In this document: positions 3 through 26,766 of the stretch, one piece after another
Position numbering within the stretch: position 1 is the stretch's first letter
How the letters are laid out: each line of letters begins with the position of its first letter
From: a virus
DNA: 29,043 nt
Reading direction: 5' to 3' (one strand)
IMG/VR virus record: IMGVR_UViG_3300045950_000211
Span: 1 to 29,043 of that record
Translations under genes and position numbers: made by a program
Notes under the pieces: model-generated
Seen by the model: the letters and a program-made list of their open reading frames with translations, nothing else
What the model was told of the DNA's origin: nothing
Database searches by the model: none

Positions 3-473
3 TTCGTGTTCAACGAGCTCAGGGTGGGGGCGCTGCTGCGCATCCGCGGGCCGCTCGGTGCCTTCACCCTGCGGGAGAGCTCGCCACGGCCACGGCTCTT
101 CGTGGCGGGCGGTACCGGCTTCGCGCCGGTGAAGGGCCTCATCGAGCGCGCGCTCGAGACCGGCGACCCACGGCCGATGCGGCTCTACTGGGGCGCCCGC
201 GCCCAGCCGGACCTCTACCTGCACGACCTGGCGCGCGGCTGGTCGCCGCGGGTCGCCTACACCCCGGTGCTCGACGAGCCGGCCGCCGGCTGGGAGGGTC
301 GCTCGGGCCGGGTCCACGAGGCGGTGGCCGCCGACATCGGCGACGCCAGCCACCTCGACGCCTACGTGAGCGGTCCGCCGCCCATGGTGCAGGCCGTGCG
401 CGCGGTGCTCATCGCGCGCGGGCTCGACCCGGAGCACTTCCACTCGGATGCCTTCGAGTCCGCGCGGAGCTGA
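3..473 (+). CDS. NAD(P)H:flavin / ferredoxin-type reductase, C-terminal part (host gene, 5' truncated by window)
   Basis: The frame is open to the left edge, so the true start lies outside the window and the GTG at 6 is not a credible start. What remains is the end of the flavin-binding barrel (RIRGPLGAFTLRE) followed by a complete NAD(P)-binding domain. The nucleotide-binding motif GGTGFAPVK is near residue 36 of the fragment, then LYWGAR, and the closing YVSGPPPMV motif followed by HFHSDAFE at the C-terminus. This is the ferredoxin-NADP reductase superfamily in the arrangement of CDP-6-deoxy-glucoseen reductase-like and NAD(P)H-flavin reductases, which pass electrons from NAD(P)H through a flavin, often to an N-terminal 2Fe-2S domain. 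Whether such a domain is present cannot be seen. Codon use is GC-rich like the phage. It is a chromosomal gene flanking the prophage. The superfamily is clear; the exact substrate is not. Confidence 0.85.
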   Translation, partial: FVFNELRVGALLRIRGPLGAFTLRESSPRPRLFVAGGTGFAPVKGLIERALETGDPRPMRLYWGARAQPDLYLHDLARGWSPRVAYTPVLDEPAAGWEGRSGRVHEAVAADIGDASHLDAYVSGPPPMVQAVRAVLIARGLDPEHFHSDAFESARS

Positions 474-551
474 CGCAGCCCCGCGGACGCACGGAGCCCC
501 GGAAGGGGTCATCGCGATCGGAGCGCACGGCAGGATCACTCTCGAGCCATC
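474..551. other. Short convergent intergenic gap between host genes
   Basis: Seventy-eight bases separate the reductase stop from the fpg stop. The two genes converge. A weak hairpin (CCCC-GGAA-GGGG, about 497-508) is present but has no T-run, so no terminator is claimed. Confidence 0.4.
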
Positions 552-680
552 TCAGCGCTGGCAGTGCGGGCAGTAACAGCTCGAGCGCTGGCCGATGCGT
601 GACATCCGGATCGGGGTGCCGCAGCGGGGGCAGGGCAGGCCCTCCCGGCCGTAGACGCGCAGCCGCTGGGCTTGCGCGAA
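552..680 (-). pseudogene. mutM: 3' fragment of formamidopyrimidine-DNA glycosylase (Fpg/MutM) cut by the prophage
   Basis: Reading the minus strand from 680 gives [17 protein letters not shown] and then a zinc finger ending ...CPHCQR and TGA (stop at 552-554). The four cysteines have the spacing C-x2-C-x16-C-x2-C of the Fpg C-terminal zinc finger. VYGREG followed by CPRCGTPI and IGQRS is the family signature. Fpg removes 8-oxoguanine and other oxidised purines, and the zinc finger is needed to bind DNA. Only 42 codons remain. Immediately upstream in frame (681-683) is TAA, where the family would continue with a residue such as Tyr of a GYF motif, so the coding sequence is interrupted here. 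The phage terminal repeats start at the same place. The rest of fpg should lie beyond the other prophage end, outside this window. Confidence 0.88.
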
Positions 681-686
681 TTAAAT
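676..686. other. Host-prophage junction (late end of the phage)
   Basis: Fpg coding sequence is continuous up to 680 (codon for Phe at 678-680), and the next codon is a stop. The phage-type repeat begins at 680-681, so the junction is within one or two bases of this point. Mu-type insertion normally makes a 5-bp target duplication; bases 676-680 (GCGAA) would be one side of it. The canonical 5'-TG of Mu ends is not at the junction (the first TG is at 686), so the exact end is uncertain. Confidence 0.6.
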
Positions 687-818
687 GCGACGGAAGTGAA
701 CTCGTGCTGACATTAGAGGCAACTTAACGCCAGAAACCCGTCGCCGTGCTGACATTGCACGCGACGCGCCGCATGTCGTGCGTCAGAGTTCCGACGCCGT
801 GCTGACATTAGAGGCGAC
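680..818 (+). repeat. Phage-end repeat array: three full and one terminal partial copy, probable transposase-binding sites
   Basis: Three direct copies of a 21-bp motif lie at 703-723, 745-765 and 798-818, with consensus CGTGCTGACATTRSASGCRAC. The first has GCAAC where the others have GCGAC, and the second has GCACG in the variable part. A fourth partial copy, ATTAAATGCGAC at 680-691, matches ATTAGAGGCGAC at 10 of 12 positions and sits at the host junction. Measured from the final C of each copy (691, 723, 765, 818) the spacings are 32, 42 and 53 bp, close to 3, 4 and 5 helical turns. Mu-family transposase A is known to bind several sites inside each phage end, and this array is in the right place for that role. 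The binding itself is inferred. Confidence 0.7.
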
Positions 819-841
819 GCAATCCACGCCCGCAAGGGTAC

Positions 842-3511
842 TCAAGTGCGTCCCACGGTGACGTCGTGGCGCTGGGTGGAGGCCAGTCCGGCGCGCTCCG
901 ACCAGAGCCGGATCCGGACGCTGGTGTTGAGCCTGGTGAGCGCGAAGTTGTCGAAATCGACCGTGACGGTGCCGTCCCCAGCCAGCAGGCCCACCTCGCC
1001 CGCGGCGGTGGCGTGGACGTCGTTGACGTCGATGAGGGGGGTGGCGCCGAGCCAGATCCGGTGGCGCTGGCCGACGAACTCCACGCGCAGGCGCACGGTG
1101 GCGCCGGGGGTGAGGGTCACGGCCGCCGAGCTGACGATGGTGAGGCTCGGCACCGTGCGGGCGAGCCGGACGTGGCCGGTGCCGGTGTCGATCCAGGCCG
1201 CCCAGGTCCAGCCGCTGGCGAGCGTGGAGCGGTAGACGATGCCGGCGATGGCGGCACCGCTCGGCACCACGATGTCCACCTCGGCCGCGCCGTCGGCCCT
1301 GGCGGCGATGGCGTCGAAGCGGCTCCGGCCTTGGGCGGTGACGCTCAGGCGGTAGCGGCCGCCGACCACCGAGTGCGTGGGCGTACCGCCGCCGAAGAGG
1401 GTCTGGCCGGTGACGAGGCCGTCGGTCCAGTCGCGGCTGAAGACCGTGCGGGCGCTGTCGCCGATCTCCTCGTCCCAGGTGCGGGTGGTGCCGGTGAGGC
1501 CGGTGACGGTGCGCCGGAGCGCCCCGGTCTCATCGTGGAATTCGAGGCTGTAGGTAGTGCCGGCCTCGGGGCCGATGCTGGCGGCCGCCTCGTCGATGAG
1601 CTGATCGGACTGGGTGATGCGGTCGCGGTGTGCCCAGCTCACCGCGAGCGGGCCGCTCACGCTCGCCGGGTAGGCGGCGCCGTTCAGACGCAGCCGGCCG
1701 GGCGGGTAGGGCCGATGCTGGCGCTGGTCCATGAGCAGGCTCGCGCTGGGGGCGCTGGCGTCGGCGAGGCGATCGGCGGTGGTCACGGTGATGAAGCGGG
1801 CGTGCACCGTCTCGCCGGGCGCGTACTCGCGGCTGTCGTTGGCGCCGAAGCCCTGCTGGACCCAGACGCGGGTCCCGGCCGGCCACGCCGCCGCGACGGT
1901 GTCGGCACAGCCGCGCGCCACCGTGAGCGTGCCGGCGGCGGTGTCCACCGCGACCACGCGCACGATCTCCGTCCCGACCAGCGCCGCGACACCGGCGACC
2001 ACCTCGGCCAGCCGCGTGGTGCCGGCCAGCGGCAGGACAGTGGCTGCGGGGCCGACGGCCGCGCTCAGGGTGCCGGTGGGTGACCAGTCGCCCTGGCCGG
2101 CCTCGGCGAAGGCGGCGGTGCCGAGGCGCGTGTGCAGCTCGTAGTGGGTGGCGAGCCCCGCCGGACGGGCGGCGGCGGCAACCAGGTAGCAGGCGGCGGC
2201 GGGGATGGCCACCGGCCCGAAGGCCCGCACGAGATCCACGTAGCTGGCCTCCCAGACGGCCACGACGGGGGCCGGGTGCGCGACCGTGCTGGGGGCGCTC
2301 CAGAGGCCAGGCTGCTGGGCTGCGTAGCTGGTGGCCGGCAGGCCGAAGACGTCCTCGGCTGCCTCGAGCGTGATGGCCCCGTCGCGCAGGCTGCCCCAGT
2401 CGACGCTCAAGATCCGCAGCGGCATGTCGGTGATCCCGAGCGGCGGCCAGGTGAGCCGGATCACGTCGCCAGGCAGCAGCGCCCAGGCGTCGCGGTTGAC
2501 GCGCAGGCTGAGCTTGGCCAGCGGTGTCGAGAGCACGCGTAGCTCGCGCTCGGCGATGCGCGCGGCCAGCGCCGCCGTCGGCAGGCCGGGGAAGGCGCGG
2601 GTGGCGGCCACCACGCCGCCCTGGGCCTGGATGGCCGCGAGGTTGTGCACGGTGATGGCGGCCTCGCGGCCGCTCTGGGCCAGATCGGTGTAGGTGACCG
2701 TGATCTCGTTCACCTGCTCGGCCGTGCCCGGGCGCTGCAGCGAGGCGAGCTCGAGCACGTTGCCGGGGTGAAAGAGCGGCAGGGCCGGCACGCTGTAGCC
2801 ACCGCGCACCGGGCGGATCACGAAGAGGCCGGTCCTCCGATCCTGCCCGACCACCGCCCCGGCATGATCGGCCACCGTTTGGATGAAGCGCTCGATGGTG
2901 TCCTGGCGCTGCCAGGCGAGGCAGAGGCCCAGGCCCTCGGCATGAAAGGTGTCGGCGGCAGCCGCGAAGTTGGCAGCGTCGATGAGCCCGGTGCCGTAGC
3001 CCATGCCCCAGTGCGGGTTGGTGAGGCACTCGTAGATGATGTGCGCCGGGTTCATGGCGAGCTCGCCGCCCGGGAGCCCGATCTCGGCGCGCGCGGCGTT
3101 CCACAGCGCCGTGCCCCAGCCGGCGCGCGTGCGCCTGACCAGGAAGGCCCAGGGCTTGACGTAGGGGTTCTGGGCGGCGACGCGGCCACCGCGCCAGACC
3201 GCGCTCAGGATCCCGCGGTAGGCCGGCTGCGGCGTGCCCTGGACGGCGGTCAGGTAGTCGTTCGCGGGCTGGCTCGACTCGCCCATCATGATGTCGAGGT
3301 CACCCAAAAGCCCGCCCTCGCGGCTCTCGCCACCGAAGAGGTTCGGCTGATGGATGCTGATCCGCCCCGAGCCGGTGACGTTGCCGGTGAAGGCGCGGCG
3401 CTCGCCGACGTCGATGGCGCGCACGCTGTCGACCGGGCCGTGACAGAGGCCGAAGTGCAGCCCCATCGAGTACCAGAAGCCGACCGTGACCGTGCGCCCG
3501 CCGCCGCTCAT
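842..3511 (-). CDS. Central tail fibre / tip attachment protein, gpJ-like
   Basis: This 889-residue protein is the last gene of the tail operon, 24 bp from the final terminal repeat. The ATG at 3511 overlaps the preceding stop as ATGA. The N-terminal ~480 residues resemble the phage tail-tip (gpJ-type, Phage-tail_3) core: an N-terminal segment with the GLHFGLCHGPVD motif, a middle part around NPAHIIYECLTNP (a conserved motif of this family), and a following segment with GDVIRLTWPPLGI. After residue ~500 come beta-rich segments. Residues ~720-865 have the pattern of a concanavalin-like carbohydrate-binding domain (RLRVEFVGQRHRIWLG, then VGLLAGDGTVTVDFDNF). At the tip of a flexible tail such a protein binds the host receptor and determines host range. 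It is shorter than lambda gpJ (1132 residues). No separate side-fibre or fibre-chaperone gene follows, so this is the only evident receptor-binding candidate apart from the other tip proteins upstream. Confidence 0.85.
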   Translation of the reverse strand: MSGGGRTVTVGFWYSMGLHFGLCHGPVDSVRAIDVGERRAFTGNVTGSGRISIHQPNLFGGESREGGLLGDLDIMMGESSQPANDYLTAVQGTPQPAYRGILSAVWRGGRVAAQNPYVKPWAFLVRRTRAGWGTALWNAARAEIGLPGGELAMNPAHIIYECLTNPHWGMGYGTGLIDAANFAAAADTFHAEGLGLCLAWQRQDTIERFIQTVADHAGAVVGQDRRTGLFVIRPVRGGYSVPALPLFHPGNVLELASLQRPGTAEQVNEITVTYTDLAQSGREAAITVHNLAAIQAQGGVVAATRAFPGLPTAALAARIAERELRVLSTPLAKLSLRVNRDAWALLPGDVIRLTWPPLGITDMPLRILSVDWGSLRDGAITLEAAEDVFGLPATSYAAQQPGLWSAPSTVAHPAPVVAVWEASYVDLVRAFGPVAIPAAACYLVAAAARPAGLATHYELHTRLGTAAFAEAGQGDWSPTGTLSAAVGPAATVLPLAGTTRLAEVVAGVAALVGTEIVRVVAVDTAAGTLTVARGCADTVAAAWPAGTRVWVQQGFGANDSREYAPGETVHARFITVTTADRLADASAPSASLLMDQRQHRPYPPGRLRLNGAAYPASVSGPLAVSWAHRDRITQSDQLIDEAAASIGPEAGTTYSLEFHDETGALRRTVTGLTGTTRTWDEEIGDSARTVFSRDWTDGLVTGQTLFGGGTPTHSVVGGRYRLSVTAQGRSRFDAIAARADGAAEVDIVVPSGAAIAGIVYRSTLASGWTWAAWIDTGTGHVRLARTVPSLTIVSSAAVTLTPGATVRLRVEFVGQRHRIWLGATPLIDVNDVHATAAGEVGLLAGDGTVTVDFDNFALTRLNTSVRIRLWSERAGLASTQRHDVTVGRT

Positions 3512-14361: not shown

Positions 14362-14802
14362 TCAGGATCCGAGGGTGGATACCGCGCTCTCGAAGGCGAG
14401 CGGGTAGTAGACGAAGCCCGGGGAGTGCCCGGGCCTTGGGGCATCGGTGCGGATGAGCGATCGGTGGGCCGGCGTGGGGGCCCAGCCCTGCAAGGCGGCG
14501 AGCAGCGCGCTCAGGAGCGGCCCGGCCAGGGCGGCGCTCGCTGCACCGCCGTCGCCCTGGGCGGCGTGCCGCACCGCCAGCACCACCAGCCAGCGCTGGT
14601 GGACGATCTGGGCCTGGCCCTGGCCTGCCTCGTCGCCCAGGCGATCGCCGTCGTAGATGACGAGCGCCGCCGGGGCGGCGAGCACGCTCTCGTCCACGGC
14701 GGCCCGTCCGGTGGCCTGGCGCACCGAGGCGAGCGCCGGCACGCGCGCGCCGATGCGGGCGATGATGGCGGGGCCGGCGGCCAGGTAGTCGGCGGGCATC
14801 AC
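14362..14802 (-). CDS. Gp37-like tail terminator / connector protein (DUF1834)
   Basis: The 146-residue protein starts MPADYLAAGPAIIARIGARVPAL and contains a strand-rich middle (AALVIYDGDRLGDEAGQGQAQIVHQRWLVVLAVRH) and a C-terminal YYPLAFES segment. This order is that of Mu gp37 family proteins, which close the tail tube at the head end or help join tail to connector. It starts in an ATGA overlap with the gp36-like gene and precedes the tube gene by 13 bp. Family assignment rests on pattern and on the gp36-gp37-tube gene order, which is conserved in Mu-like phages. Confidence 0.78.
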   Translation of the reverse strand: MMPADYLAAGPAIIARIGARVPALASVRQATGRAAVDESVLAAPAALVIYDGDRLGDEAGQGQAQIVHQRWLVVLAVRHAAQGDGGAASAALAGPLLSALLAALQGWAPTPAHRSLIRTDAPRPGHSPGFVYYPLAFESAVSTLGS

Positions 14803-15206
14803 GACAGGCCGGCCGTGTCGTCGCGCCGGAACACCGGCGGGCTGCCGGCGAAGGCCGCGGCCAGGCTCGGGCGTACTGCCTCGGCCGCGGGCAGGCCGAG
14901 CGACACGCGCCCGGCGGCCAGGTGCTCGAGCAGGCGGCGCGCGTCCTCGTAGCGCTGGCGCACCTCCTCGCTCGCGGCGTGGCGCCAGAGCCGGTAGCGG
15001 GCGATGTCACAGGTGAGGTTGCGCACCAGTGGCGGCACGCTCGGCAGCGGCAGCGGATAGCGCGCCGCCAGGTGCGCGCTGACCTCGGCGGCGGCATCGG
15101 CCAGCGCGCGCTCGAGGGTGGCGGCATGGGGCTGGCCGCTCGTCAGTTGGTTGAGTTCGGCCGCGCCGAAGGCGGTCTCGAGATCGGCGATGCTGGCGTA
15201 GTTCAC
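14799..15206 (-). CDS. Gp36-like head-tail connector protein (DUF1320)
   Basis: The 135-residue protein begins MNYASIADLETAFGAAELNQLTS, the characteristic start of the DUF1320/Mu gp36 family. An alternating helical part follows (ALADAAAEVSAHLAARYPLPL, then LVRNLTCDIARYRLW, RYEDARRLLEHLAAG), giving the HK97 gp6-like all-helical connector fold. Such proteins extend the portal ring and receive the tail. The first residues (ADLETAFGAAEL) are repeated in the small protein encoded immediately upstream (ADLEAAFGAAEL), and so is the DNA, indicating a local duplication. It overlaps both neighbours by 4 bp. Confidence 0.85.
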   Translation of the reverse strand: MNYASIADLETAFGAAELNQLTSGQPHAATLERALADAAAEVSAHLAARYPLPLPSVPPLVRNLTCDIARYRLWRHAASEEVRQRYEDARRLLEHLAAGRVSLGLPAAEAVRPSLAAAFAGSPPVFRRDDTAGLS

Positions 15207-15401
15207 GGCCGCCGGGCCTCGTCCAGGGCGGCCGTCTCCGCGGCCGGCGTCACCGCGCCGACGGCGAGGAGCGGCTCGGCGCGGGCGGCCGGCAGATGCA
15301 GGATCTCGCCCACCGCGTAGCGCACCCGATCGTGCAGGATGGGGGTGAGCGCGCGGTAGGGCGCGAGCTCGGCCGCGCCGAAGGCGGCCTCCAGATCGGC
15401 G
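15153..15401. repeat. 37-bp near-identical direct repeat (15153-15189 and 15365-15401)
   Basis: The two copies differ at 3 of 37 positions. Each encodes the start of a gene (ADLE-x-AFGAAEL): copy one in the gp36-like gene, copy two in the 71-residue gene. It is the clearest DNA trace of the duplication that made the 71-residue gene. Confidence 0.8.
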
Positions 15402-15418
15402 CCGGGGGCGGCCATCAT
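15203..15418 (-). CDS. Small chimeric protein: start of gp36-like joined to end of the upstream small protein (71 aa)
   Basis: Residues ~7-19 (GADLEAAFGAAELAPY) match the N-terminus of the downstream gp36-like protein. Residues ~23-58 (LTPILHDRVRYAVGEILHLPAARAEPLLAVGAV) match the C-terminal half of the upstream 83-residue protein (FPVDHDRVYHPAGEVLHLTPVTAEALIAAGAA). An N-part from the downstream gene and a C-part from the upstream gene is exactly what tandem duplication across the gene boundary would create. It overlaps both neighbours by 4 bp, so the reading frame and coupling are kept. The repeated half resembles small phage proteins with the pattern HDG-x-x-Y-x-PGE-x-x-x-L. Function unknown; possibly a head-region accessory. 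Confidence 0.7.
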   Translation of the reverse strand: MMAAPGADLEAAFGAAELAPYRALTPILHDRVRYAVGEILHLPAARAEPLLAVGAVTPAAETAALDEARRP

Positions 15419-15666
15419 GCCGGCGGCAGCGGCAGCGGCAGCGGCAGGTCGGCGAGCGGCACGGCCGCGCCGGCCGCGATCAGCGCCTCTGCCGTCACCG
15501 GGGTCAGGTGCAGCACCTCACCGGCCGGGTGGTAGACCCGATCGTGATCGACCGGGAACAGGAGCTTGACCGGCGCGCGCGGCACTTCTTCCACCGGTGG
15601 CAGCGGCGGCAGTGCCGGGGCGGTGCTGTCCTCTGGACTCGGGGTCGGAGTCGGGGTGCGGGCCAT
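15415..15666 (-). CDS. Small head-region protein with V-x-HD-x-V-Y-x-PGE motif (83 aa)
   Basis: The first ~30 residues are proline-rich and low in complexity (TPTPTPSPEDSTAPALPPLPP). The rest is a compact domain: VKLLFPVDHDRVYHPAGEVLHLTPVTAEALIAAGAA. This resembles a short domain seen in many phage head-tail regions (the pattern of a hydrophobic strand, HDG, Y-x-PGE, then a helix ending GAA). The end consists of alternating Leu-Pro from a GGCAGC-type repeat (about 15421-15450), which may slip. It lies 9 bp after the preceding paralogue-type gene and overlaps the chimeric gene by 4 bp. No function is assigned. Confidence 0.68.
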   Translation of the reverse strand: MARTPTPTPSPEDSTAPALPPLPPVEEVPRAPVKLLFPVDHDRVYHPAGEVLHLTPVTAEALIAAGAAVPLADLPLPLPLPPA

Positions 15667-15675
15667 GGGATCTCC

Positions 15676-16026
15676 TCAGATGTCGTCAAAGCCGATGAGC
15701 AGGAGGGTCACGTTGCTCTGCGCGGTGACGCCGTTCTCGTAGCGCACTCGATGTAAGCGGCCTGTCCTCAAGGCGGTGGTCTGCGCGAAGGTGTCCATAT
15801 CGGTTGGAGCCTGCGCCCGGTCCCACAGCGTGCGACTCGGACACACTCGCCACGTCGTGCCATCGTCCGACCACTCGACCGATATGCGCTGAACGTTCGA
15901 CGCCACGGCGCTGTACATGACGAGCACCAGGGCGGCGAGGCCCGGTGAGTCGGCGAGATCGACGACGGGCGAGATCCATTGCCCACTCGCCGCGACCGGT
16001 CCGAGATCCCAGCGCCAGCGCCGCAT
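15676..16026 (-). CDS. Capsid-proximal beta-sandwich-like protein, second of a tandem pair (116 aa)
   Basis: It is a paralogue of the 115-residue protein encoded just upstream: both share GxVAAS-x-x-x-I-x-P-x-VDL near the start, EWSDDG-x-x-W in the middle, and NG-x-TAQ-x-N-x-x-x-x-x-x-GFD at the end. The SDDG-x-x-W pattern is also found in discoidin-like domains, and the tail protein at 7383-8951 has a comparable SADGVTW. The base composition is a little less GC-rich than its neighbours. Position directly after the major capsid and its paralogue suggests a head decoration or head-fibre protein. That is an inference; no homologue of known function is recognised. Confidence 0.62.
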   Translation of the reverse strand: MRRWRWDLGPVAASGQWISPVVDLADSPGLAALVLVMYSAVASNVQRISVEWSDDGTTWRVCPSRTLWDRAQAPTDMDTFAQTTALRTGRLHRVRYENGVTAQSNVTLLLIGFDDI

Positions 16027-16040
16027 CGTCCTGCCTCCGC

Positions 16041-16388
16041 TCAGTAATTATCGAAGCCCATGACGCGGATGCGCAGGTTGGTCTGCGCGGTCGTGCCGTT
16101 CCGGCCGCGGATCCGCAAGTAGCGCCCGAAGCGCACGCAGGGAAAGGGCACCGTCGTGCCGGCCCAGTTGCTCACAGCCAGATGCTGGCCGATGATGTTC
16201 GGCCCCATGAACCATTCGACGCCATCGTCCGACCACTCCGGCCAGATCTGGTGGCCCGAGCTGTGCAGGCCGATGGCGCCGACGTACAGGTTCTTGGTGC
16301 CGGCGCGCCCCTCGAGGTCGACGGGCGGCGTGATGTACTCGGCGCTGGCCGCGACCGCGCCCATGTTGAATTGCATGATGAGTGACAT
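16041..16388 (-). CDS. Capsid-proximal beta-sandwich-like protein, first of a tandem pair (115 aa)
   Basis: The protein reads MQFNMGAVAASAEYITPPVDLEGRAG, then PEWSDDGVEWFMGPNI, then RFGRYLRIRGRNGTTAQTNLRIRVMGFDNY. Strand-rich throughout, with several aromatic residues, no membrane segment and no enzyme motif. It is encoded 25 bp downstream of the major capsid gene and 14 bp before its own paralogue. The arginine-rich RYLRIRGRNGTTAQ segment could contact the capsid or a sugar. A tandem gene duplication has clearly happened; the paralogues have diverged to roughly one residue in four identical by eye, so it is not recent. A head decoration function is likely only by location. Confidence 0.65.
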   Translation of the reverse strand: MSLIMQFNMGAVAASAEYITPPVDLEGRAGTKNLYVGAIGLHSSGHQIWPEWSDDGVEWFMGPNIIGQHLAVSNWAGTTVPFPCVRFGRYLRIRGRNGTTAQTNLRIRVMGFDNY

Positions 16389-16413: not shown

Positions 16414-17358
16414 TCAGCCGACCGCGTTCTGGAAGAAGTACCCGGCGGCCGGCGCGCTCACCACCTCGCGCACGCTCTCGCCGACGCGCAGGCGAGTGCC
16501 GCCGCGCAGGCCCGAGCGCGGCTCCTCGATCTCGCCGGCGATGCGCGTGCCGAACTGCGCGGTGAAGCCGAAGGTCGGCTGATCGGTGGCGGCGGCGTCC
16601 TCGGAGACGTAGAGCAGCGCGCAGTGGTTGCCCCAGACGCGCTGGAAGGCCGGCGGCTGGCCGCGGCGGGCGGTGTTGACGAAGCCGCTGCCGACCAGCA
16701 CGTTCGGCAGCTCGAGCAGCTCGGCCAACTGCTGGCGGGTGACGGCGCCGCCGGTCTGGGCGCTGGCGTTGGCGGCCTGGATGAGGCGCGGATGCTGGCG
16801 CAGGCGCGTCCAGGTGCGCTGGCCGAGCACGATGGTGTTGGGGCGCACCAGCGGCACGTCGAGCGCCGTCAGGAGCGCATCCAGCGGATGGCTGCTGGCG
16901 AAGTCCGACCACTGGCTGGTGCCGGAGAGGGTCACGGTGTGACCGGCGGCGTAGCTCGCGAGCGCGAACACCCGGTTCGCCACCCGCACCTCGCGATCGA
17001 GCATGACGAGACCGGCCAGGAGCTGCGTCGAGCGCGCGAGCGGGCTCGCCGCCGGGCCTGCGCCCATGGCCTCGTAGGCCTCGGTCTCCTCGTGCGGCAC
17101 CAGGTCATCGAGGCCGAAGTCCACGCACTCCTCGGTGGTGAGGCTGCCGCCGAACTCCACCATGGTGGGCTCGCTCCTGCGCCCGACCAGGGTGTTCGGC
17201 ACCGTGTAGGCGTCGGCCTGGTGATAGACCGTGTAAGCGAAGCGCTTGGCGGTCTGGATGCGCGGCAGCACCCGATCGGCGATGAGGTCGACGTCGCGGT
17301 TCCTGTAGCCGATCGCGATCGCGGTCAGCTCGGGGTTGAGCGGAAAGGCAGTGCTCAT
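16414..17358 (-). CDS. Major capsid protein (314 aa)
   Basis: The sequence matches the family of siphophage capsid proteins that begin with an IAIGYRNRDVDLIADRVLPR segment, followed by TVPNTLVGRRSEPTMVEF and LTTEECVDFGLDDLVP. A central helical part has QLLAGLVMLDREVRVANRVF. The C-terminal half has RPNTIVLGQRTWTRLRQHP, NVLVGSGFVNTARRGQPP, VWGNHCALLYVSEDA and a closing RVGESVREVVSAPAAGYFFQNAV. It is not Mu gpT itself but the family found with Mu-like head genes in other transposable siphoviruses; the HK97 fold is assumed. Several hundred copies form the icosahedral shell. The gene order decoration-capsid-small proteins-gp36 and good Shine-Dalgarno (CGGAG) support it. Confidence 0.88.
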   Translation of the reverse strand: MSTAFPLNPELTAIAIGYRNRDVDLIADRVLPRIQTAKRFAYTVYHQADAYTVPNTLVGRRSEPTMVEFGGSLTTEECVDFGLDDLVPHEETEAYEAMGAGPAASPLARSTQLLAGLVMLDREVRVANRVFALASYAAGHTVTLSGTSQWSDFASSHPLDALLTALDVPLVRPNTIVLGQRTWTRLRQHPRLIQAANASAQTGGAVTRQQLAELLELPNVLVGSGFVNTARRGQPPAFQRVWGNHCALLYVSEDAAATDQPTFGFTAQFGTRIAGEIEEPRSGLRGGTRLRVGESVREVVSAPAAGYFFQNAVG

Positions 17359-25351: not shown

Positions 25352-25675
25352 TCAGCCCCGGCGTGGCCGGGCGACGTCGATCGGGGCCTCGGCGCGGTAG
25401 TCCACCACCGCCTCGCCGTCGGCGGTGAGCTCGGCGATCCACTGGGCGCGGCGCTTGATGGTGACGAGGTTGCGCTTGGCCAGGCTCACGAGCTCGCGGC
25501 GCACGTCGTCGTTGGTCGCGCGCACCGGGATGTCGCGGCAGGCGCCGAGCAGCACGGACTCGTTGGTGCCGTAGGGGCGGGCGTGCCAGAGCGCGAGCAG
25601 CAGCACCCAGCGCAGGTATTCGCGCTCGGCGCGGGCGTGGTCGATGGCGTGCCCGAACTTGTCATCAGCGGCCAT
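25352..25675 (-). CDS. Gp26-like winged-helix protein (107 aa)
   Basis: The sequence HAIDHARAEREYLRWVLLLALWHARPYGTNESVLLGACRDIPVRATNDDVRRELVSLAKRNLVTIKRRAQWIAELTADGEAVVDY shows a helical start and then a winged-helix arrangement (helix-helix-recognition helix, then strands WIAELTADGEAVV). In Mu-like phages a protein of this kind lies directly before the gp27 small terminase, and this one has the same spot. Its function is not established; DNA binding or a role in assembly is possible. It starts within the end of the preceding gene (11 bp overlap) and ends 3 bp before the small terminase start. Confidence 0.72.
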   Translation of the reverse strand: MAADDKFGHAIDHARAEREYLRWVLLLALWHARPYGTNESVLLGACRDIPVRATNDDVRRELVSLAKRNLVTIKRRAQWIAELTADGEAVVDYRAEAPIDVARPRRG

Positions 25676-26141
25676 GGCGGGCCTCCATCATCGTTTCCCA
25701 GATCCGATCCAGCTTGGCGTTCATGGCCGTGTACTCGCGGATGGCGTCGTCGCGGCGCTGGTACTCGCGCTTGCCCTCCTCGACGCTGCCCTCCATGGCG
25801 GCGATGCGCCGCTCGGCCTCCTGCACGCGCTCGCGCAGGACCGCGATCACGTGGTCCACCGCCTTCTGGTAGCGCGACTCGGCGTGCTCGAGCAGGCGCA
25901 GCGTGTCCTCGCGGCGCTGGTACAGGGTGGGCAGCTCGGTCAAGGTCTGCTGCAGGCGCTCGTCGACCTGGGCGGTGTGGCGGGCGACGTCGCCGATCTC
26001 GGCGATGCGGGCCTCGAGCTGGGTCATGATGCGGGCGCCCATCCAGCGCACGATGGTGAACAGGCCGCCGAGCAGCGTGACGGCGCCGGTGACGAAGGCC
26101 GGCAGCAGGTAGTCGAGCAGCAGGTGGCCGTCGAGGGTCAC
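25665..26141 (-). CDS. Membrane-anchored coiled-coil protein of the lysis region (158 aa)
   Basis: The first ~35 residues include a transmembrane helix (LLPAFVTGAVTLLGGLFTIVRWMG), the rest is a long charged coiled coil (MTQLEARIAEIGDVARHTAQVDERLQQTL, then REDTLRLLEHAESRYQ, VLRERVQEAERRIAAMEGS). The pattern resembles DUF2730-like Mu gp25 proteins and inner-membrane spanin subunits (Rz-like), an N-terminal anchor with a periplasmic coiled coil. The N-terminal ~70 residues are paralogous to the next upstream gene (LLD-x-LLP ... IA-x-x-G-x-VAR-x-T-x-x-VDERLQ). It overlaps that gene by ATGA. A spanin or Rz-like role is plausible but not shown. Confidence 0.7.
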   Translation of the reverse strand: MTLDGHLLLDYLLPAFVTGAVTLLGGLFTIVRWMGARIMTQLEARIAEIGDVARHTAQVDERLQQTLTELPTLYQRREDTLRLLEHAESRYQKAVDHVIAVLRERVQEAERRIAAMEGSVEEGKREYQRRDDAIREYTAMNAKLDRIWETMMEARHGR

Positions 26142-26470
26142 GGCTGGCCCTCGGCGGCGGTCGGGGTCATGGCGGCCGGCGGCTCGCCGCGGGCGATGGC
26201 GGCGATGCGGGCGCGGCTCTGCTCGATCTCGGTGAGCGCCTGGGCGGTGCGGCCGGCGATCTCGGCGGCGCCGGTCAAGAGGCCCTGCAGCCGCTCGTCG
26301 ACCTCGCGGGTCTGGCGTGCCACCTCGCCCAGATCGGCGATCTGCGTCTCCAGCTCGGTCAAGATCCGGCGGGCCCAGCGGCCGAGGGCGCGCGCGAGCC
26401 AGCCGGCGAGGGCGAGGAGACCCGCGCCGGCCCCGCCGGGCAGCAGCCAGTCGAGGAGCTCTGGGCTCAC
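26138..26470 (-). CDS. Chimeric membrane protein: N-half like the downstream gene, C-half like the upstream gene (110 aa)
   Basis: The first ~65 residues (MSPELLDWLLPGGAGAGLL, then RRILTELETQIADLGEVARQTREVDERLQGLLTG) match the start of the 158-residue downstream protein. The last ~45 residues (GAAEIAGRTAQALTEIEQSRARIAAIARGEPPAA) match the end of the 99-residue upstream lipoprotein (GAADLADRTARALIELELCQARVAAIARGEPLEA). A transmembrane helix lies at ~10-28. The chimera keeps 4-bp overlaps with both neighbours. Such an N-downstream/C-upstream protein is what tandem duplication over a gene boundary would give. Function unknown; it may be a holin-, spanin- or membrane-scaffold-like protein. Confidence 0.72.
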   Translation of the reverse strand: MSPELLDWLLPGGAGAGLLALAGWLARALGRWARRILTELETQIADLGEVARQTREVDERLQGLLTGAAEIAGRTAQALTEIEQSRARIAAIARGEPPAAMTPTAAEGQP

Positions 26471-26766
26471 GGCGTCACCTCCACCGGCGGCAGCACGTCC
26501 ACGGACGGCAGCACGGGCACCGGGGCGGACTCCGGCGCGGGCGGGGCGGCCTCAAGCGGCTCGCCGCGAGCGATGGCCGCCACCCGCGCCTGGCAGAGCT
26601 CGAGCTCGATGAGGGCGCGGGCGGTGCGATCGGCCAGATCGGCGGCACCGAGCAGGAGCTCGGTCGAGCGCTCGCCCGGGCGGGTGGCGAGCTGTGGCGA
26701 GCAGCCGGCGAGCGCCCACAGGCAGAGGGCGAGGGCGAGGTAGAGGACGAGCGTGGGCCTAATCAT
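26467..26766 (-). CDS. Small lipoprotein of the lysis region (99 aa)
   Basis: The start ATG at 26766 is fixed by an unusually strong ribosome binding site. The protein opens MIRPTLVLYLALALCLWALAGC, a signal peptide with a lipobox (L-A-G-C, Cys at residue 22). The mature part has QLATRPGERSTELLLGAADLADRTARALIELELCQARVAAIARGEPLEA, and a proline-rich tail (PVPVLPSVDVLPPVEVTP). A short lipoprotein after a phage lysozyme is the layout of an outer-membrane spanin (Rz1-like), here not embedded in another gene. The partner inner-membrane spanin could be one of the two following genes. The C-terminal half is duplicated in the chimera encoded next. Confidence 0.72.
   Translation of the reverse strand: MIRPTLVLYLALALCLWALAGCSPQLATRPGERSTELLLGAADLADRTARALIELELCQARVAAIARGEPLEAAPPAPESAPVPVLPSVDVLPPVEVTP

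Follow-up and report, generated by a model that had tools for sequence, protein, structure and literature searches.

A small gene in a Mu-like phage with the start of its downstream neighbour and the end of its upstream neighbour, probably derived by duplication of their boundary

The 29-kb contig analysed here, referred to throughout as the window (the whole stretch of 29,043 nt, available as a single-contig IMG/VR virus record), is a metagenomic Mu-like phage. Within its late operon a gene of 71 codons, termed B, carries the start of the gene downstream of it (C) and the end of the gene upstream of it (A). B very probably arose by duplication of the boundary between these two genes, whichever genome, its own or that of a close relative, supplied the second copy. 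The direct repeat and its collinearity, the intactness of both parents, the gene overlaps, the absence of B from related phages and the predicted integrity of its domain are established. The present evidence does not distinguish duplication inside a single genome from unequal recombination involving two related phages.

The locus and its direct repeat

The late operon lies on the minus strand and runs in the order major capsid (16414–17358), two genes of 115/116 aa, A, B, C and tail terminator (14362–14802). Gene A (15415–15666, minus; 83 aa) is DUF7210-like and is the intact upstream parent; its N-terminus is Pro-rich, as in the lone DUF7210 gene of close relatives. Gene C (14799–15206, minus; 135 aa), the intact downstream parent, is a gp36/DUF1320 head–tail adaptor that matches the Pfam profile PF07030 at 119.5 bits and is related to the solved structures 9khx, 5ydn and 8rka. 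Both flank B, are full length and have orthologues in relatives. Gene B (15203–15418, minus; 71 aa) is chimeric, with codons 1–18 corresponding to the C start and codon 19 to the stop corresponding to the 3′ part of A. The stop of A and the start of B share an ATGA (15415–15418, minus), and the stop of B and the start of C share a GTGA (15203–15206, minus), so that each junction overlaps by exactly 4 nt. The GC content of B by codon position (0.85/0.57/0.94) is similar to that of neighbouring genes and is coding-like. The full-length gp36/DUF1320 profile matches C only, B holding merely the first 18 adaptor codons. As a whole protein B scores 27.8 bits against DUF7210 (PF23843), over the Pfam curated cut-off of 27 bits; A scores slightly under it at 24.7 bits and is recovered by an iterated profile at 3.8e-11.

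The two genes between capsid and DUF7210 (window 15676–16388) are paralogues, 34 % identical, and are absent from the three closest phages. The second of them has a weak F5/8-type-C (galactose-binding-like) match, and the pair are possible head-surface proteins.

The first-pass annotation had described the start of B as copied from the gp36-like gene over 37 bp, and exactly this match was found: 34/37 bp are identical between B (15365–15401, minus) and C (15153–15189, minus), with both genes aligned from their start codons. The local score of the B–C start comparison is 59, against 26.9 ± 4.0 (maximum 47) for 2000 codon shuffles of B and against 38 for the next best of 67 DUF7210/gp36 gene pairs taken from the window and from related loci. 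Outside the window, no DUF7210 gene was found to resemble its own gp36 start at the DNA level. Among these pairs, then, the start similarity is not general to DUF7210 and gp36 genes. The other half of the proposed chimera, an end resembling that of the upstream 83-residue gene, is equally apparent. The 3′ part of B matches A at 9e-8 by BLASTP, and 91/162 nt agree in register, a value reached by none of 20000 shuffles (null 59 ± 5.8). Each arm of the repeat on its own exceeds all 20000 codon shuffles.

These two matches, of the B start with C and of the B end with A, lie on a single collinear direct repeat whose offset stays at 212 bp throughout, which makes the self-alignment of the region stronger than first claimed. 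By self-BLAST, 15153–15334 aligns with 15365–15546 (E 1.8e-8; 117/182 ungapped). In an ungapped 182-nt scan of the window at all offsets from 182 to 3000 this repeat ranks first; ranks two and three belong to a repeat in the lysis region (110/182), and nowhere else in the window does a match exceed 97. The edges of the unit are inferred from the points at which similarity stops, which places copy 1 at 15365–15576 (minus; A codon 31 to B codon 18) and copy 2 at 15153–15364 (minus; B codon 19 to C codon 18), the two being identical at 130/212 positions. B is as long as one 212-bp unit plus one 4-nt overlap, 216 nt. Divergence is uneven along the repeat: start codons 7–18 agree at 33/36 positions, the tail at 78/132 and codons 1–6 at just 9/18.

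Origin and age of the chimera

A tandem duplication of 212 bp, reaching from A codon 31 across the A/C boundary to C codon 18, would yield in a single step an intact A, an ORF that begins as C and ends as A, and an intact C. Both junctions would overlap by exactly 4 nt because the boundary itself was duplicated, and the new ORF, one unit plus 4 nt long, would be in frame because A and C overlapped by 4 nt. An in-frame chimera would require a unit length of 2 mod 3, a one-in-three outcome that 212 satisfies. Flanked by 4-nt overlaps, B could be translated by termination–reinitiation after A, needing neither its own promoter nor its own ribosome site, and on this anatomy it is probably co-expressed with A and C. 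The breakpoint would lie just ahead of the first DUF7210 strand, so that B would hold a complete second copy of the domain behind a short leader of adaptor-helix sequence. The earlier proposal that B is a chimera of this kind is thus borne out by intact parents, a single offset and relatives without B.

Tandem duplications that ignore gene boundaries are known to give chimeric genes in Drosophila (PMC5460883, PMC4503668). As here, breakpoints inside two neighbours fuse a 5′ portion from one gene with a 3′ portion from the other, while the parents stay intact; the phage case differs in that its parents overlap within an operon, its unit measures 212 bp and its new ORF has 4-nt overlaps at both ends. 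A search of the open-licence literature for the same mechanism in overlapping phage genes found nothing direct. The mechanism is known elsewhere; its occurrence twice in a single phage, at tightly packed junctions, is unusual.

The three closest phages (G001–G003; capsid 82–83 % identical to that of the window) each have one DUF7210 gene between capsid and gp36, spaced 19–24 nt from gp36 as against the 4-nt overlaps of the window, and none has B. The survey of related phages for the middle gene, which had been suggested as a check, thus found it absent from all close relatives. Among 102 loci with a DUF7210 hit, the window alone has two DUF7210 genes beside gp36. The matches to B in relatives are of DUF7210 type, covering residues 20–60 in G003 and 14–57 in G001; in G002 residues 3–64 match at 45 %, across an Ala-rich linker. 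A survey of 369 bacterial genomes gave one hit to B (residues 20–66), in a lone DUF7210 gene directly after a capsid gene. Protein searches of viral contigs found no relatives of B, degenerate patterns designed on its core and on its chimeric junction matched no other contig, and tblastn of phage records with B or with the G003 DUF7210 protein likewise found none.

As a separate observation, the G002 DUF7210 gene (L010 5958–6164) has an Ala-rich leader, EAPAAEVQQWR, that is superficially B-like; a gp36 origin for this leader was unsupported by DNA comparison.

Over codons 7–18 (36 nt), B agrees with the G003 gp36 gene at 34/36 positions and with its own C at 33/36, while C and G003 agree at 31/36; the apparent freshness of the 37 bp reflects the conservation of gp36 starts from phage to phage. 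In the tail arm, compared over 30 codons (90 nt), A and B agree at 60/90, A and G003 at 61/90 and B and G003 at 64/90. Tail dS, from few sites, is 0.74 between A and B as against 0.46 and 0.47 to G003, and A and B form the closest pair in 569 of 5000 bootstraps of the DUF7210 core, which is too short to order A, B and the orthologues. The A and B tails are thus as distant as orthologues of different phages, and it cannot be demonstrated that the duplication postdates the split from G003. Either an old duplication would have been lost elsewhere, or evolution after it would have been fast, or two phages would have recombined unequally. Additionally, the unequal divergence of the arms calls for unequal constraint, conversion or a two-phage origin.

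Unequal (illegitimate) recombination would take the left side, A with the gp36 start, from one phage and the right side, the DUF7210 tail with gp36, from another. This is a variant of boundary duplication rather than its opposite, as it produces the A–B–C layout without an old duplication, and it is a possible though tentative account of B. One recent event would explain both levels of divergence, the A and B tails differ as orthologues do (60/90, beside 61/90 and 64/90 to G003), and the B start is slightly nearer to G003 gp36 (34/36) than to its own C (33/36). However, in gene-by-gene identities to G001–G003 the nearest relative does not clearly change at 15.4 kb. B has also lost the YA(S/T)I motif that marks the gp36 start in G001–G003, so that its start has evolved independently.

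Rather unlikely is that B is a mere by-product of the duplication, under weak or no selection, translated as a passenger at best and on its way out. Such a fate would fit a gene that no relative has kept, whose codons 1–6 have diverged freely and whose leader is predicted to be poorly ordered. It fits less well with a frame that has stayed open at both overlaps despite much divergence, with a DUF7210 score above that of A (27.8 as against 24.7 bits) or with an A–B dN of 0.34, below the dS of 0.74 (few sites).

The contig is single and unreplicated and the two copies resemble two strains, as would be expected had two co-occurring strains been misjoined in metagenome assembly; a public phage record (L143) with a perfect 196-bp duplication and an N at the join is probably an artefact of that sort. 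Nevertheless, a misjoin is very improbable here, given that no long identical word common to the C start and the middle of A is available at the B breakpoint, that both sides keep exact frames and 4-nt overlaps, and that the lysis region independently has the same anatomy. An old, separately conserved family, the finding that was to have counted against a recent chimera, can hardly be entertained: B does belong to DUF7210, a widespread phage domain, but no such family was seen among the relatives surveyed, viral contigs and phage records hold no B-like start, and the 369 genomes and the close phages give DUF7210-type matches only. Chance or compositional similarity between Ala-rich, GC-rich coding sequences (74 % GC, with Ala-rich linkers such as the superficially similar one of G002) is a negligible prospect, rejected by the shuffle and gene-pair nulls and by the exact register of both arms and the boundary.

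Predicted structure and possible role of B

In the AlphaFold model of B, residues 21–60 form a block with pLDDT of 90–94, and residues 1–10 lie at about 51. The compact beta DUF7210 domain is thus predicted to be intact and the leader to be weakly ordered. Structural neighbours in BFVD include named DUF7210 proteins, all with E-values above 0.001. In the model of C, the sequence equivalent to the leader forms the first adaptor helices (H6–13, H15–21). Taking boundary duplication as the origin of B, the gene most likely provides a further, diverged DUF7210 protein whose leader derives from the adaptor, although this is read from models.

DUF7210 (PF23843) genes of Mu-like and related phages occupy the same slot between capsid and adaptor as A and B. 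Relatives have one copy with a variable leader, whereas the window has two, the second with an adaptor start as its leader. Whether B does the work of the capsid-to-connector accessory protein represented by A, as its second and diverged copy, is evenly poised. Small proteins are found at the same operon position, between the capsid and head-completion genes, in Mu (gp35, FluMu_N) and in lambda, where gpFI is encoded between the capsid and head-completion genes. The B model superposes on the C-terminal domain of gpFI (2lsm) with Z 5.8 over 52 residues and an rmsd of 2.0, a score tied with those of unrelated small folds (ribosomal protein L9 and GINS); gpFI and B have no sequence link. The gpFI protein is described as binding the capsid and helping terminase to dock (PMC4856287). 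By this analogy the nearest lead for DUF7210, if a doubtful one, would be a helper of the gpFI type, bound to the capsid while DNA is packaged.

The lysis-region case and the generality of the route

The first-pass annotation had counted two independent boundary-duplication chimeras in this phage, the other lying in the lysis region, and this holds up. The two halves of the lysis-region gene (M, 26138–26470) match separate places in G003. The start of M is like that of the downstream gene Y (25665–26141) and its end is like that of the lipoprotein-like upstream gene X (26467–26766). The repeats (window 25665–26766) lie at offsets of 335 and 377 and are about 75 % identical. In G003 the two parents adjoin, without M. 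As with B, a downstream start is combined with an upstream end, the junctions overlap, the parents are intact and the gene is absent from G003; the lysis case differs in its gene families and its larger unit (about 329 bp between junctions). Different genes, different unit sizes and parents that are adjacent in G003 without M indicate that the two cases are independent.

M matches the start of its own Y at 29/64 residues, compared with 18/65, 13/66 and 21/59 for the Y orthologues, and the end of its own X at 28/46, compared with 30/62 for X in G003. The arms of M are thus closer to each other than to relatives, and the lysis event looks later than the split from G003. The gp36-region copy had been taken to be the younger on the strength of its closer DNA match, which is unsupported; the lysis case looks at least as young. 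The relative dating of the two events is more likely the reverse, with the lysis event the younger, as far as these comparisons can tell.

That overlapping ATGA junctions are a route to new small genes, as the first-pass annotation proposed, is plausible in itself, but as a general statement it rests on two events in one genome, which are suggestive and not proof. Under such a route, duplications across 4-nt overlaps would recurrently make small phage genes, a third of them in frame and translationally coupled, with two made here and both kept; as a recurrent process this is unlikely on present cases. When related loci totalling about 1.2 Mb were scanned by protein arms (4223 candidate triples), the lysis case came first by a wide margin and the gp36 case third by its weaker arm (55/108). 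Among the hits read out, no third clear chimera was found in this DNA. The hit ranked above the gp36 case (L131, 57/60) is a low-complexity ORF, as is a further hit in L133. A DNA scan for similar chimeras missed the lysis case, its repeat being split by indels, and an apparent extra chimera from that scan (L079–L081) is an out-of-frame ORF inside an 821-aa gene. The perfect 196-bp tandem copy in L143 (10567–10959; OP380511.1) repeats a holin start and was set aside for the N at its join; it is annotated as a separate membrane protein gene.

How phages acquire their many small unique genes is still debated, since age has made most cases illegible. In the present one the unit and its breakpoint can be seen together with both parents, and relatives preserve the gene order that preceded duplication. 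Additionally, the rule that emerges, a 4-nt overlap spanned by a unit of 2 mod 3, is so simple that every phage genome could be searched for it.

Other repeats were noted in relatives. In G003 the stretch that separates the portal-like gene from the gp30-like gene (L136 1192–2700) contains strong, long direct repeats with up to 139/150 identical positions, and it is much longer there than in the window. Likewise, G004, a more distant relative, has in its late region a tandem repeat with a period of 114 bp (L138 6703–6960; 125/150 identical).
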